The notes under the pieces were generated by a model. The model did not search any database and was not told where the DNA came from. It saw only the letters and a program-made list of their open reading frames with translations. A program made the position numbers and the translations under genes. From a virus: 20,435 nucleotides of DNA. Below, one piece after another: positions 11,898 to 19,276 of the stretch (positions are counted from its first letter, which is position 1; every line of letters starts with the position of its first letter). The DNA lies in the IMG/VR virus record IMGVR_UViG_3300010883_017752, positions 1 through 20,435 of that record; one strand, 5' to 3'.

Positions 11898-12908
11898 ATG
11901 CTTGTCAGCTACATAAGAAGCTCTTCTTACAACAATTACGATTATTGCCAGCAGCAGTACTACATTAGTTATGTACTGGGGCACTCAACCGTATCTGGGA
12001 AAAAGGCTCAGATGGGGACGATAGTTCATAAAGTCATGGAGTGCTTGGCTAGAGCTAAAAAGTCTTTGCAAGACAATAAAAAGAGCTTTAAGGATGATGT
12101 GCTTGGCAGGGTTAGAATAACCAAGGACAAGGTTAAGTCTGAAAAATTTGTCAACACTCTAATAGAAAAAAGTTACGAGCATTATACAAACGATTCCCCC
12201 CACGACTTTACGAAAAAAGACTTTCGAGATTGTGAAAAATGGTCTTGGATGGCCATTCACTATAACAATGGCCAGTTTGATCCGAGAAATAGAAATGTAG
12301 TGGAGGCGGAGCCTCACTTCGACATAGAGATTACTGAGCCTTGGGCGAAGTATTCTTACGATCTTCCAGACGGGACTAAGCTGGAAGGCAACTTAGCCAT
12401 TAAGGGTACAATCGATCTCGTAACCCAGATAGATGATGGCGTCATCGAAGTTATAGACTGGAAGACTGGCCGCAGAATAGACTGGGCTAGTGGAGAAGAA
12501 AAGACCTACGAGAAACTATCCATAGATCCGCAACTTCTTTTGTACTACTACGCTATCTCTAAGATATTTCCCGACTACAAACAAGCAATCATGTCTATAT
12601 TCTACATAAGAGATGGAGGTCCATTTAGTCTATGCTTTGATGAATCTGACCAAACAATGTTTCTAGATATGCTGAGAACTAGGTTCGCGCAAATCAAGAA
12701 CAATACCAAGCCACAACTCATTTCAAAAAATAGATCTCACTGGAAATGCACAAGGCTGTGCGACTACTGCAAGAATGACTGGGAAGGTACGGACAAGAGT
12801 ATATGTCAATATGTTCAGGAAGAGGTGGAAAAAAATGGTATTGAACAAGCAACATTAACATGCACACAAAAGGGGTTTAGCCTTGGATACTACGACGCAC
12901 CCGGTTAA
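11898..12908 (+). CDS. Cas4/RecB-like PD-(D/E)XK nuclease with iron-sulfur-type cysteines
   Basis: A 336-residue nuclease of the RecB/AddB/Cas4 group. The nuclease motifs are 'GTIVHKVME' (H44), 'GTIDLVTQIDDGVIEVIDWK' (D173, D187, K189) and 'DPQLLLYYYAI', the QxxxY motif that positions DNA. One Cys near the N-terminus ('YDYCQQQYY', C17) and a cluster near the C-terminus ('CTRLCDYCKNDW', then 'SICQY') match the four-cysteine iron-sulfur arrangement known in Cas4 and AddB. Such enzymes degrade or resect DNA ends. There is no CRISPR array or other cas gene here, so a role in recombination or replication is likelier than adaptation. Its end overlaps the next gene by 26 bases. Confidence 0.86.
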   Translation: MLVSYIRSSSYNNYDYCQQQYYISYVLGHSTVSGKKAQMGTIVHKVMECLARAKKSLQDNKKSFKDDVLGRVRITKDKVKSEKFVNTLIEKSYEHYTNDSPHDFTKKDFRDCEKWSWMAIHYNNGQFDPRNRNVVEAEPHFDIEITEPWAKYSYDLPDGTKLEGNLAIKGTIDLVTQIDDGVIEVIDWKTGRRIDWASGEEKTYEKLSIDPQLLLYYYAISKIFPDYKQAIMSIFYIRDGGPFSLCFDESDQTMFLDMLRTRFAQIKNNTKPQLISKNRSHWKCTRLCDYCKNDWEGTDKSICQYVQEEVEKNGIEQATLTCTQKGFSLGYYDAPG

Positions 12909-14377: not shown

Positions 14378-16297
14378 ATGCCAGTTTGGACACCTCTGCA
14401 TTTGCACACACACTACAGCCTCCTAGATGGTCTCTCAAAGCCGTCTCAGGTTGCCGATAGATGTTCTGATCTTGGGTACACCTCGTGCGCCGTCACAGAT
14501 CACGGAACAATCTCCGGGGCAATCTCTTTTGTGGGAGCCATGAAGGATAAAAATATTAAGCCCATCTTAGGCTGTGAATTTTATCTCTCACAACAATCAT
14601 GTAGTATTAAAGATAAGTCAAACCGCTCCTTAAGTCACCTAGTAGTCTTAGCGAAAAATAAGAATGGCTGGGATAAACTTATCCAAGCAACTTCTAAAAG
14701 TAACGACGACGGGATATTCTATTTTAAACCTAGATTAGATCTCGATTTGTTAGCGGACTACTGTGATGGAAGCTTGATTTCTTTTAGTGGTCACATGGGG
14801 AGCGACTTAGCCAACGTCCTGTTTACTGATTATCGAATTGGATACAACGCTTCAACATATGAAGAGGCCACGTCAGAGTTAGATCCCGACTGGAAAAGCA
14901 AAGCCACAAGGCTTGCAGAAAAGTATAGGGAAATTTTTGGGAAAGAAAACTTTTTTATTGAGATTCAACTAATAGATAAAGACAATGCCCCCTCCACAAT
15001 TCTGATAGCTGAATGCTTAAGAGAAGTTAGCAAACACACGGGGATTCCATGTGTCGCCACGGCAGATTCCCACTACCCGACAAAGGAGGATGCCCTAGAT
15101 CAGAGACTACTTCTTTGTTCCGCGATGAAGACCACCCTGAGTAAGATTGAAAGCAAGATGAACGCAGGAGAAGACGTTGGACTATCTTCCTTCTTTCGTT
15201 CTAATAATTATCACATCCCATCTAGAGATGAAATTGAAGCTATCAATACTCCAGAAGAGATTGCTAATACTGTTCTAATCGAGGGCATGTGCGAGGAGTA
15301 CAACATACTAGGTTCCCCGATGCTCCCCCAGTTCTCTTGCCCAAACGATTTAACAGAAGATGAATACCTCAAAGAGCTTTGTCGTCATGGTTGGAAAAGT
15401 CTTCTAAAGGCCGGGAATAAGATTGAAGAGGACGATAAGCTTCAGGCGTATTTGTATAGAATTAAAAAAGAATTGGAAATCATACAGGGTGCGAATTTAT
15501 CTGGCTATTTTTTGATAGTTAGAGATATAGTAAATTACATCAAGGACAACGGCTGGCTTCCGGGTCCGGGCAGAGGGTCAGCGGCGGGCTGTCTGGTTTC
15601 ATACCTTGTGGGTATCACCAAGGTAGATCCAATAGAACACGACCTTCTTTTCGAAAGATTTTATAACGCTGGCCGAAACACGGATGACCACATCTCTTTG
15701 CCAGATATCGACATAGATGTTCCCGCAGAGAAGCGCGATGATACAATTGGTTATATCCGATCTAAGTACGGAAACAACAAGGTTGGACAGATGATTACGT
15801 TTGGTAGACTTCAAGGGCGAGGAGCTTTGAAGGAGGTGTTTAGGGTTCATCAGGCGTGTAGCTTTGATGAGATAAATGCTATCACAAAAAATATTCCCCA
15901 AGAGCATGAGATTTCTGATCAACTAGAAAATATGAGTAAACCCTCTATTATCAAGTGGGCATTGATTAATCAGCCTGAAGGATTAAAAGAGTGGTGTCAT
16001 ATAAATGATGATGAGCAATTGGAAGGAAAATATTCTAAACTGTTTGAACAAGCCATAAGACTTGAAGGGACGTATAAATCTCAGGGTAAACATGCCGCAG
16101 GGGTTGTAATTTCTTCAGAGAATCTTAGTGATGTATGTCCCATGATAAGAGATAAGCATGGAGAAGAAAAAGTTGCGGGACTAGAAATGCAGGATTTAGA
16201 AGCTATGGGCCACGTTAAATTTGATGTATTAGGTATTAATTTCTTAGATAAAATTATGAAAATCATAAAGGATATCAGTAATGAAGAGCGCGAATGA
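14378..16297 (+). CDS. dnaE: DNA polymerase III alpha subunit, N-terminal half (PHP and palm)
   Basis: The first 639 residues of a DnaE-type replicative polymerase. The PHP domain opens with 'LHLHTHYSLLDG' (H8, H10, H12), continues with 'AVTDHGTISG', and includes 'TADSHYPTKEDA', so its metal ligands look intact. The palm has 'GPGRGSAAGCLVSYLVGITK', the catalytic 'SLPDIDIDVPAEKRD' (D445, D447) and 'GHVKFDVLGIN' (D616), equivalent to D401, D403 and D555 of E. coli. The protein then stops at 'DISNEERE', just before the region a full-length DnaE continues with. All three catalytic aspartates are in this half; most of the fingers are not. It would need the product of 17253-18845 to act. Confidence 0.95.
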   Translation: MPVWTPLHLHTHYSLLDGLSKPSQVADRCSDLGYTSCAVTDHGTISGAISFVGAMKDKNIKPILGCEFYLSQQSCSIKDKSNRSLSHLVVLAKNKNGWDKLIQATSKSNDDGIFYFKPRLDLDLLADYCDGSLISFSGHMGSDLANVLFTDYRIGYNASTYEEATSELDPDWKSKATRLAEKYREIFGKENFFIEIQLIDKDNAPSTILIAECLREVSKHTGIPCVATADSHYPTKEDALDQRLLLCSAMKTTLSKIESKMNAGEDVGLSSFFRSNNYHIPSRDEIEAINTPEEIANTVLIEGMCEEYNILGSPMLPQFSCPNDLTEDEYLKELCRHGWKSLLKAGNKIEEDDKLQAYLYRIKKELEIIQGANLSGYFLIVRDIVNYIKDNGWLPGPGRGSAAGCLVSYLVGITKVDPIEHDLLFERFYNAGRNTDDHISLPDIDIDVPAEKRDDTIGYIRSKYGNNKVGQMITFGRLQGRGALKEVFRVHQACSFDEINAITKNIPQEHEISDQLENMSKPSIIKWALINQPEGLKEWCHINDDEQLEGKYSKLFEQAIRLEGTYKSQGKHAAGVVISSENLSDVCPMIRDKHGEEKVAGLEMQDLEAMGHVKFDVLGINFLDKIMKIIKDISNEERE

Positions 16298-16511
16298 TTA
16301 TTACCAAAATGTACTTCTGGACGGATGCTCTATCGAGTATCAGAAATTAAGCATTTGTGATTTAAGAGATTACTATAATTTTTATAGCAGAAGAAAAACA
16401 CCTATCTATCAAGTGCATTGTGATGATTCTCAGAATAGATTTTCTCAAATCTATAAAGATATCAGCGAGGCAATCAACAGTTTCGTCGAATTGAAAAAGA
16501 AAATATCTTAA
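16281..16511 (+). CDS. Small protein of unknown function between the polymerase halves (76 aa)
   Basis: Unrecognised. It overlaps the end of the polymerase N-half by 17 bases and has a good ribosome binding site (AAAGGA, 8 bases before the ATG). It is rich in Tyr, Ser and Lys, with 'DLRDYYNFYSRRKTPIY' and a helical C-terminus, 'ISEAINSFVELKKKIS'. I see no GIY-YIG, HNH or LAGLIDADG signature, so it does not look like a homing endonuclease or a remnant of one, and it has no intein blocks. Its position inside the split polymerase locus suggests either a small replisome partner or a newcomer at the break. Confidence 0.62.
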   Translation: MKSANDYYQNVLLDGCSIEYQKLSICDLRDYYNFYSRRKTPIYQVHCDDSQNRFSQIYKDISEAINSFVELKKKIS

Positions 16512-16557
16512 TTATACGCTGGAGAAAGTTTAGAATTTAATAGTCACGCCCATAACA

Positions 16558-16564
16558 AAAGGAG
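16558..16564 (+). promoter_or_regulatory. Ribosome binding site of the exonuclease, defining an ATC start
   Basis: AAAGGAG followed by 6 bases and then ATC at 16571. The ssb gene has the identical heptamer with the identical 6-base spacing before its ATG. This is the main reason to place the exonuclease start at the non-standard ATC codon. Confidence 0.7.
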
Positions 16565-16570
16565 ATAGCC

Positions 16571-17260
16571 ATCAATTACAGGGACATAATTGTCTTCGAT
16601 TTTGAGACCGGTTCTAGAAATCCAGCAAAGACACAGCCGACACAAATTGCAGCAATAGCTCTTCATGGAAGAAAGCTAACCATCCAACCCGGAGGTATTT
16701 TTAACAGCGAGATCAGGCCGATCTTAAACGACGACAAGGCCACGGAGATGGGACTTGATCCGGTTGAAGAGGAAGCCTTAAATATTACGCATAAAACTCG
16801 CAAAGAACTTGCAAAAGCCCCGCATCTTAAAACGGTATGGAAAAAGTTTGGCGAGTTTGTCAACAAGTTTAACTTCAAGAAGACACCCTATTTTGCTCCT
16901 ATCCCAGCGGGCTATAACATTATTGGTTTTGATCTGCCCATTGTTCAAAGGGTTTGTGAAGAACATGGGCCAACCGACAAACAGGGTAGGCAATGTTTGT
17001 TTAATAAAATCCACAAAGTAGATGTCATGGATATGGTTTGGCAGTGGATGGAAAACAATCCCGACGTAAAGTCTCTCAGCATGGACAGCATGCGGGATTA
17101 CATGGGGTTTCCAGAGGAGAGCAAGGAAGGCGCCCATGATGCCCTACAGGACGTTAAAGATACGGCCAACATGATGATCAGGTTCTTTAAATTCTATCGC
17201 TCCCTCGCTCCAAAAGTGAAATTTGAAAAGGCTTTTGCAGACGGAAACTTCTATGTTTGA
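16571..17260 (+). CDS. dnaQ: DEDDh 3'-5' exonuclease (DnaQ-like), ATC start inferred
   Basis: A proofreading-type exonuclease of 229 residues. Numbered from the ATC codon as residue 1, the motifs are complete. Exo I is 'IIVFDFETGS' (D10, E12), Exo II is 'YNIIGFDLPIV' (D121) and Exo III is 'GAHDALQDV' (H189, D194), the H-x4-D spacing of the DEDDh class. The open frame begins after a stop at 16553-16555 and has no ATG, GTG or TTG before Exo I. The first ATG, at 16748, would remove it and leave an inactive protein. The stop overlaps the ATG of the polymerase C-half by 8 bases. It probably proofreads for the split polymerase in trans, like bacterial epsilon. The ATC could also be a mutated ATG or a sequencing error. 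Confidence 0.88.
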   Translation: MNYRDIIVFDFETGSRNPAKTQPTQIAAIALHGRKLTIQPGGIFNSEIRPILNDDKATEMGLDPVEEEALNITHKTRKELAKAPHLKTVWKKFGEFVNKFNFKKTPYFAPIPAGYNIIGFDLPIVQRVCEEHGPTDKQGRQCLFNKIHKVDVMDMVWQWMENNPDVKSLSMDSMRDYMGFPEESKEGAHDALQDVKDTANMMIRFFKFYRSLAPKVKFEKAFADGNFYV

Positions 17261-18845
17261 TATCAATGACACATCTTATGACTGCCGCAAAACTTGGAGC
17301 CTTATTTGTGACGGGAGAACTAAGGGTGTTTTTCAATTAGAGAGTCAGCTTGGGCGGTCTTGGGCGAAGAGACTGAAGCCCAGAAACATTGAAGAGCTTG
17401 CTGCTTTGTCCGCCTTGCTTCGACCGGGATGCTTAAAGGCTATCGTTGATGGCAAGTCAATGACTCAGCATTATGTGGATAGAAAAAATGGACACGAAGA
17501 AGCTTCTTATTTAGACGAATCTTTAAAGCCTATACTTAAACCCACATATGGAGTGTTGGTATATCAGGAGCAGTCTATGAGAATTGCTCAGGAGATTGCT
17601 GGCTTTAATCTCCAACAGGCAGATGATCTTAGAAAAGCTATTGGAAAAAAGAAGGCGGGCCTCATGGCGGAGGTCAAAAAAACTTTTATCAAGGGATGCA
17701 AAAATACATCCATTGTTTCTGAAGAAATTGCGGAGGAAATATTTGGTTGGATTGAAAAGTCAAATCGGTACGCATTTAATAAATCTCATGCTGTTAGTTA
17801 TGCTATTTGTGGCTATTGGTCTGCATACTGTAAAGCGCATTTTCCTCTACATTTCTATTGCAGTTACCTCTACCATTCACACGGCAAGCAAGATCAGCAA
17901 CAAGAAGTAAAAGAGCTGGTATCTGATGCCAAGATGCATGACATTATAGTTATGCCGCCGAAGGTTGACAATCTAAAAGGTCATTTTAACATTAAGGACG
18001 GCAATATTTATTTTGGACTACAAGATGTTAAGTATATTGGTGGTAGTCAGGTTGAGAAGGTAATCTCTGGGATAAAAGAAATAGAAGAGAAGTATGGTCA
18101 GGGGATTAAGGATATTAGTTGGCATAGAATATTGATTAATTTATCGGATAAGATCAACAGCAACGCTATGATAGCTCTTATCTCTATCGGGGCGCTTAAT
18201 TCTGATTATACCATTACTAGAAATAGAATGCTTTATGAGTTTGAAACTTGGTCTAGCTTAACTAAAAAAGAAAAAGATTGGGCGAAAGAAAACTGCGATG
18301 ACCCCAAGGGTTTGTTCCCAGAAAAAGGAAACAAGGGATTAGAGACAACGTTAGACAGACTGTTTCCTACCAAGAAAGAAGGTGGAGGAACTCATAATTC
18401 AAGGAGGAAGGATATAGTTAAGGATCTGAGAGACCTTTTAAAAAATCCCCCCTACGAACTAGACGATATGCCGGATTGGATAGCCTCCGAAGAGCAAAAA
18501 TATCTAGGAGTATCTCTTACATATTCAAAGATTGATGGTTGTGATACTGGAGCGTCAAACACCACATGTAAAGAATTCCTACAGGGCAAACCGGGCAAGG
18601 TTGTTTTGGGAGTAGAGATTATTTCATTAAGAGAATGGACTATTAGAAAGGGCAATAGTAAGGGCGATGTTATGGCTTTTCTTTCTGTGGAAGATAGCAC
18701 TGCCTCAATGGATTCTGTTATTCTCTTCCCCGAAGCTTGGTTAAAAAATAAGGCCTTGCTATATTCGGGGAACACGGTACTTCTATCTGGGAAAAAATCT
18801 TCCAAAGACACTACCCTCATAGTGGAAAAAGTTTTTCAAATCTAG
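17253..18845 (+). CDS. dnaE: DNA polymerase III alpha subunit, C-terminal half (fingers, HhH, OB-fold)
   Basis: The second part of the DnaE polymerase, 530 residues from the ATG at 17253. The in-frame TTG at 17223 has no ribosome binding site. It opens exactly where the N-half ends: 'MFDINDTSYDCRKTW' corresponds to the segment before the conserved 'KGVFQLESQLGRSW' (about residues 28-41). The fingers continue with 'ALLRPG', 'PTYGVLVYQEQSMRIAQEIA' and 'RYAFNKSHAVSYA'. 'FGLQDVKYIGGSQVEKV' is the helix-hairpin-helix region, and the last 100 residues form an OB-fold ending in 'LIVEKVFQI'. No canonical clamp-binding peptide is obvious at the end. With the N-half the total is about 1170 residues, close to one normal DnaE, so very little appears lost. 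Confidence 0.93.
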   Translation: MFDINDTSYDCRKTWSLICDGRTKGVFQLESQLGRSWAKRLKPRNIEELAALSALLRPGCLKAIVDGKSMTQHYVDRKNGHEEASYLDESLKPILKPTYGVLVYQEQSMRIAQEIAGFNLQQADDLRKAIGKKKAGLMAEVKKTFIKGCKNTSIVSEEIAEEIFGWIEKSNRYAFNKSHAVSYAICGYWSAYCKAHFPLHFYCSYLYHSHGKQDQQQEVKELVSDAKMHDIIVMPPKVDNLKGHFNIKDGNIYFGLQDVKYIGGSQVEKVISGIKEIEEKYGQGIKDISWHRILINLSDKINSNAMIALISIGALNSDYTITRNRMLYEFETWSSLTKKEKDWAKENCDDPKGLFPEKGNKGLETTLDRLFPTKKEGGGTHNSRRKDIVKDLRDLLKNPPYELDDMPDWIASEEQKYLGVSLTYSKIDGCDTGASNTTCKEFLQGKPGKVVLGVEIISLREWTIRKGNSKGDVMAFLSVEDSTASMDSVILFPEAWLKNKALLYSGNTVLLSGKKSSKDTTLIVEKVFQI

Positions 18846-18907: not shown

Positions 18908-19276
18908 ATGAACAATTGTGCTTTCGTTGGCCGTCTAGCCTCAGACCCCGTAATCAAGGAAGTTAACAATACACATTTAGTTAATTTTACATTAGCTATT
19001 GAAGAACACAGGAGAGATAAAGACGGGACGAAAAGAAAGCGTGTGGATTTTCTCGATTTTGAAGCGTGGGATAGTGGAGCAACAACAATCGAAAAGTATT
19101 GCTCCAAGGGAGACCAGATTGCTGTTATCGCTACAGCGAGACAACAGAGATGGAAAGACGAGGGTGGAAGCAGTCGTTCTAGGATTAACTTCAGAGTAAA
19201 TAACTTCAAACTCTTCAACAATAAGAATGATAGTAATCAAGAAGAGGTTGAGGAGATGGCTATGGCCGCAGAGTAG
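18908..19276 (+). CDS. ssb: Single-stranded DNA-binding protein
   Basis: A 122-residue SSB of the bacterial OB-fold type, which coats single-stranded DNA at the fork and during recombination. It starts 'MNNCAFVGRLASDPVIKE', the classic SSB opening, followed by 'NFTLAIEEHRRDKDG', 'VDFLDFEAWDSGATTIEKYC' and 'KGDQIAVIATARQQRW', which match the successive SSB beta strands. The C-terminal tail after about residue 100 is acidic ('NQEEVEEMAMAAE') but lacks the DIPF-type ending, so contacts with partners may differ from those of bacterial SSB. The start has the strong ribosome binding site AAAGGAG, and a possible promoter lies upstream, fitting a protein needed in large amounts. Confidence 0.93.
   Translation: MNNCAFVGRLASDPVIKEVNNTHLVNFTLAIEEHRRDKDGTKRKRVDFLDFEAWDSGATTIEKYCSKGDQIAVIATARQQRWKDEGGSSRSRINFRVNNFKLFNNKNDSNQEEVEEMAMAAE

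Follow-up and report, generated by a model that had tools for sequence, protein, structure and literature searches.

A phage proofreading exonuclease gene within a split DNA polymerase III module that probably starts at an AUC codon

Introduction

Where does translation of a gene begin when its reading frame reaches an essential catalytic motif before any canonical start codon? This question is raised by an exonuclease gene in the window, a 20,435-nucleotide stretch of viral DNA (positions 1 to 20,435 of IMG/VR record IMGVR_UViG_3300010883_017752). Natural AUU and AUC starts are very rare. An earlier sequence-only reading of the window proposed that the gene starts at an ATC at 16571, which would be either a rare AUC initiation codon or a changed ATG. 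In this study, we compared the locus with related phage contigs; a functional phage Pol III proofreading exonuclease is very probably translated from a genuine AUC start at this position.

Results

First, the exonuclease frame was read codon by codon. A TAA stop at 16553-16555 closes it upstream, and from 16556 the codons are CAA AAG GAG ATA GCC ATC AAT TAC AGG GAC ATA ATT GTC TTC GAT TTT GAG. This agrees with the proposal that the frame is open from 16556 with no ATG, GTG or TTG between that position and the Exo I Asp; the conserved N-terminus is accordingly preceded by no canonical start. Counted from ATC 16571, the protein has 229 residues (stop at 17258-17260) and carries the DEDDh motifs, namely Exo I DxE with D10 and E12 (VFDFET), Exo II (NIIGFD), and Exo III HxxxxD (HDALQD). 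The first in-frame ATG, at 16748, opens an ORF of 170 aa from which Exo I is deleted, as had been stated. The matching families are labelled 'DNA polymerase exonuclease subunit' (phrog_192) and RNase_T/exonuclease (PF00929). The spacer between the Shine-Dalgarno (SD) sequence and the ATC is ATAGCC, 6 nt, and the SD ranks third of the 27 window starts by duplex energy. The layout claimed to match that of ssb does so: AAAGGAG stands 6 bases ahead of the ATC, and the ssb ATG at 18908 is preceded in the same manner (AAAGGAG ATCGAG ATG). The features are collected in Table 1.

Table 1 Features of the exonuclease locus, exonuclease genes without a canonical start in other contigs, and dnaE-N interruption sites.
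Feature	Location	Strand	Basis or context
DEDDh 3'-5' exonuclease (putative proofreading subunit), 229 aa + stop	16571..17260	+	PF00929 E 1.1e-11; phrog_192 E 7.6e-23
Inferred initiation codon ATC of exonuclease	16571..16573	+	Aligned with ATG in 80 nearest relatives and with ATT/ATC in at least 4 other lineages
Shine-Dalgarno AAGGAG of exonuclease	16559..16564, within AAAAGGAG 16557-16564	+	Sequence; duplex -8.7 kcal/mol
dnaE N-terminal half (PHP + catalytic palm) of split Pol III alpha	14378..16297	+	PF02811, PF07733; phrog_405
76-aa ORF between dnaE-N and exo	16281..16511	+	Homologs at same position in most relatives
dnaE C-terminal half (finger, HhH)	17253..18845	+	PF17657, PF14579
exo without canonical start	L204/L184		GAAGGAGATAGTC ATT AAT
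exo without canonical start	L130/L131/L169		TAAAGGAGCTAGTC ATT AAT
exo without canonical start	L155/L252/L242/L245		CAAAGGAGATAATC ATC AAY
exo without canonical start	L247, grouped with L155/L252/L242/L245		CAAAGGAGATAGTC ATT AAT
exo without canonical start	L233/L234/L257/L259		GTGGAGGTGTCAG ATT AAY
exo without canonical start	L236-L239, grouped with L233/L234/L257/L259		GTGGAGGTGAAAA ATT AAT
exo without canonical start	L261, grouped with L233/L234/L257/L259 and L236-L239		GTAGAGGTGCAAG ATT AAT
exo without canonical start	L246		CGGAGAACAGTC ATT ATA AAC
H of HVHS at dnaE-N interruption	L262:1964, L282:1951, L265:1948, L285:1955

In the window the module runs dnaE-N, 76-aa ORF, exo, dnaE-C, followed by ssb and a sigma factor gene, and the order of the first four is kept in nearly all related contigs examined. 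The 76-aa ORF gave no family match in profile searches. The ATG of dnaE-C overlaps the exo stop codon (ATGTTTGA). This neighbourhood suggests that the exonuclease proofreads with the phage Pol III alpha. Like the phage exonuclease subunits of phrog_192/PF00929, it is a DEDDh exonuclease adjoining Pol III alpha genes; it differs in that the isolates known are all remote. Bacteroides phage SJC03 shows 28% identity to the window protein, and the exonucleases of DAC19-type phages and of Chryseobacterium phage MA9V-3 show 26-28% identity to the protein of L236, from a distant AUU clade. Pol III alpha itself (14378-18845) is split into its two genes after the motif KFDVLG, which we take, by E. coli DnaE, to hold the third catalytic Asp; no intein was noticed. 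An extra stretch of about 0.7-2.3 kb lies between dnaE-N and the small ORF in L026, L027, L031, and L051, and one of the same size range between exo and dnaE-C in L058-L060 and L062-L064; these are possibly mobile genes.

Subsequently, the start codon was compared in related genomes. All 80 of the closest IMG/VR exo homologs (70-77% identity) have ATG in place of the window ATC. Since ATG is the usual codon there, the site can also be called a changed ATG, and that part of the alternative proposed earlier stood. A change introduced by sequencing or assembly, the true base at 16573 being G, was first suggested by the same 80 relatives, and a single contig carries ATC for the window's own species: the nearest exo is 77% identical, an exact-context scan for that species found no contig with this site, and contigs whose DnaB is 89-94% identical to that of the window end before exo. 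This explanation was dropped after AUU/AUC had been seen in other lineages, and we now regard it as improbable.

For the wider sampling, loci were collected via dnaB and dnaE-C, and IMG/VR was scanned with the start motif for ATH at the start codon; a start was scored as lost when no canonical start occurred within 25 codons of the Exo I motif. Besides the window, 20 contigs from at least four further lineages have ATT or ATC at the exo start and no nearby in-frame canonical start (Table 1). In the group of L233, L234, and L257, an in-frame ATG occurs 21 codons upstream of the ATT; a stop is found there in the sister lineages L236 and L261. In IMG/VR, the same start motif occurs with ATG in at least 120 rows versus 11 contigs with ATH; thus, AUH is the minority state in the window's clade. 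Matches of a second motif scan, mostly ATG-ATH-AAY (Met-Ile-Asn), are ordinary starts and were left out of the AUH count.

Because AUU/AUC recurs at this start codon in other lineages, an error in the window contig is unlikely. It would need to have landed by chance on the very codon where AUU/AUC recurs, whereas the same codon class and SD layout are found in the 20 other contigs, some AUH types come from several separate samples (the L130/L131/L169 type, for example, consists of three contigs), and the window's other ORFs are intact. As controls, orthologs of six further core genes were searched for lost starts, and none was found in phoH (0/31), recA (0/64), dnaB (0/85), primase (0/100), kinase (0/129), or ssb (0/192). 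The flags raised for dut, g13799, dnaE-C, and sigma seem to reflect drift in the N-terminal alignment and not a loss of start codons; for dnaE-C, the ATG overlapping the exo end is readable across the junctions of L204, L018, and L233. The flags remaining after inspection are those of g11898 and dnaE-N, described below.

The SD sequences of the AUH contexts were then compared with those of canonical starts of the same gene. GGAG, or a GGAGG/GAGG-type sequence, lies 6 nt upstream of the AUH starts with the sole exception of L246, and the window exonuclease likewise combines an AUH codon at its homologs' start position with a suitably spaced SD. GGAG occurred at -14 to -5 in 11 of 12 AUH contexts versus 26 of 91 AUG-type contexts. 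The median duplex energy was -8.8 kcal/mol in the former and -6.0 kcal/mol in the latter (Mann-Whitney P 8e-6, only a guide because related sequences are not independent).

The same contexts bear on whether frameshifting or readthrough from the 76-aa ORF, and not initiation at AUC, produces the exonuclease. That ORF lies directly upstream, and in several AUH relatives its stop falls between the SD and the AUY (AGATAGTCATT). In the window, however, it ends 59 nt upstream, in a different frame, and a TAA in the exo frame stands only 6 codons before the ATC; in L236, a stop lies a single codon ahead of the ATT. No shared slippery site was seen, and what is conserved is the 6-nt SD spacing. Production from the upstream ORF is thus hardly credible, and initiation at the AUC itself is the reading that we retain.

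For INDEPENDENCE and selection, 68 exonucleases were placed on a quick maximum-likelihood tree, from which the start codon and first residues were left out. The AUH state requires 6 changes on this tree, all 6 forced by well-supported branches, or about 5 without the long-branched L246, and AUG rows are interleaved among the AUH lineages. The direction of the changes is not proven, because reversals may be among the 6. Pairs from AUH lineages gave dN 0.029 and dS 1.19 (L155/L242), dN 0.005 and dS 0.97 (L233/L234), and dN 0.11 and dS 2.5 (L236/L261). ATT is kept in both members of the last pair, so that AUU was held in one clade across near-saturated synonymous divergence. Among L155, L242, and L247 the start codon varies only between ATC and ATT, the third base never being G. 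In the AUH genes, differences in codons 2-15 are nearly all synonymous. Strong purifying selection acts on the exonucleases of the AUU/AUC lineages, dN/dS being at most about 0.06 for pairs with a measurable dS. In several pairs, among them every pair that includes the window, dS was saturated and no ratio was obtained. Maintenance of the non-canonical codon was found in these other lineages, the window's species being represented by one contig.

These data also speak to a start that was lost recently in a gene now decaying or silent. The step from ATG to ATC in the window lineage is a single base, on a branch without close relatives. Against this, the frame has its full length and every DEDDh motif, codons 2-15 differ from those of relatives almost entirely synonymously, the strong SD is retained, and AUH lineages elsewhere keep exo under the constraint given above. 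Decay is therefore very improbable. The rare AUC initiation proposed earlier is well supported by the comparison: the same codon is AUU/AUC in other lineages, it follows a strong SD at 6 nt, and the gene is intact and under selection. Taken together, the AUC start looks like a recurring natural tuning of a proofreading gene rather than a sequencing error.

Discussion

Host IF3 normally selects against AUH-type starts, and a strong SD compensates in part. At the exo gene, the strong SD AAGGAG would place the 30S subunit at AUC 16571. Initiator fMet-tRNA would read this codon with a mismatch at the third position; the exonuclease should therefore still begin with Met. The weak start would lower or tune its synthesis, limitation being the likeliest effect. 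Given the overlap of dnaE-C with the exo stop codon, the exo start could also act on the second half of the polymerase, which would perhaps be tuned as well. The mRNA around the exo start showed no consistent folded structure.

Known weak starts offer two comparisons. In E. coli, infC (encoding IF3) and pcnB have AUU starts that limit synthesis and against which IF3 discriminates (PMC9410913), and host IF3 may discriminate against the exo AUC in the same way. The likeness is an AUU/AUC-class start on a potent nucleic-acid or translation protein; the difference is that infC and pcnB are host genes with known limited synthesis, whereas exo is a phage gene known here from its sequence. Autoregulation as for infC is not expected, because the exo protein is not IF3. 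In S. aureus, ccpN (AUA), cvfC1 (AUU), and infC (AUA) resemble exo in combining a conserved non-canonical start with a strong, suitably spaced SD (PMC13009471). Their output has been measured, AUU/AUA starts with extended SD giving about 10% of AUG expression, whereas the evidence for exo comes from sequence, in which a single gene family has changed repeatedly. By analogy with that study, it is plausible that the weak start keeps proofreading levels low (PMC13009471).

An AUH start with a strong SD is thus already known as a kind, whereas repeated use of one in the replication module of phages seems not to have been reported; the literature searched, which covered few subscription papers, contained no report of phage AUU/AUC starts. 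Gene callers limited to ATG, GTG, and TTG would start the gene at 16748 and lose Exo I; consequently, such phages would be mis-annotated as lacking proofreading. Repeated AUU/AUC codons with a strong SD on a replication gene furthermore offer a natural way of testing whether the ratio between proofreading and polymerase is set by weak starts, which would perhaps bear on phage mutation rate. A broader interpretation is that several lineages independently reached a convergent translational control of replication fidelity or polymerase assembly, sensed during infection via host IF3 or 30S availability; the nuclease-like gene described below, whose canonical start is likewise missing in some relatives, would belong to this picture. 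We offer it tentatively and consider it rather unlikely. An IF3 homolog was looked for in 12 related phage contigs and not found, and a search for an altered initiator tRNA was likewise negative. Contig G003, of an AUU lineage, has genes for tRNA-Asp and tRNA-Ile(UAU) (the latter at L305:6519-6591) and a tmRNA gene (L305:7704-8038) with the tag AEKQFALAA.

Additional observations in related phages

The gene at 11898-12908, which starts with ATG in the window and looks like a RecB/Cas4-type nuclease, has homologs without ATG, GTG, or TTG in several relatives (L233, L234, L236-L239, L257, L259, L261, L217, L284, L285-L287, L289, and L292). In these homologs, translation seems to begin at an AUA or AUU codon that follows a GAGG/AGGA-type SD by about 7-8 nt, and the family would appear from these sequences to be a second gene of these phages with a non-canonical start.

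In about four related lineages (10 contigs), an insert breaks dnaE-N exactly behind the PHP motif HVHS, at the sites listed in Table 1 and also in L269, L283, L286, L287, L289, and L316. The insert opens with a TAA or TAG and has a length of 8, 10, or 11 nt, none of them divisible by three, and HYSLLDG resumes in another frame. This makes the site a candidate for a programmed frameshift or bypass. At its end, the insert of L262, L265, and L282 carries a Ser codon that resembles the take-off codon (TCT...TCT/TCC/TCA), a pattern reminiscent of translational bypassing; the insert of L285 and L316 does not.
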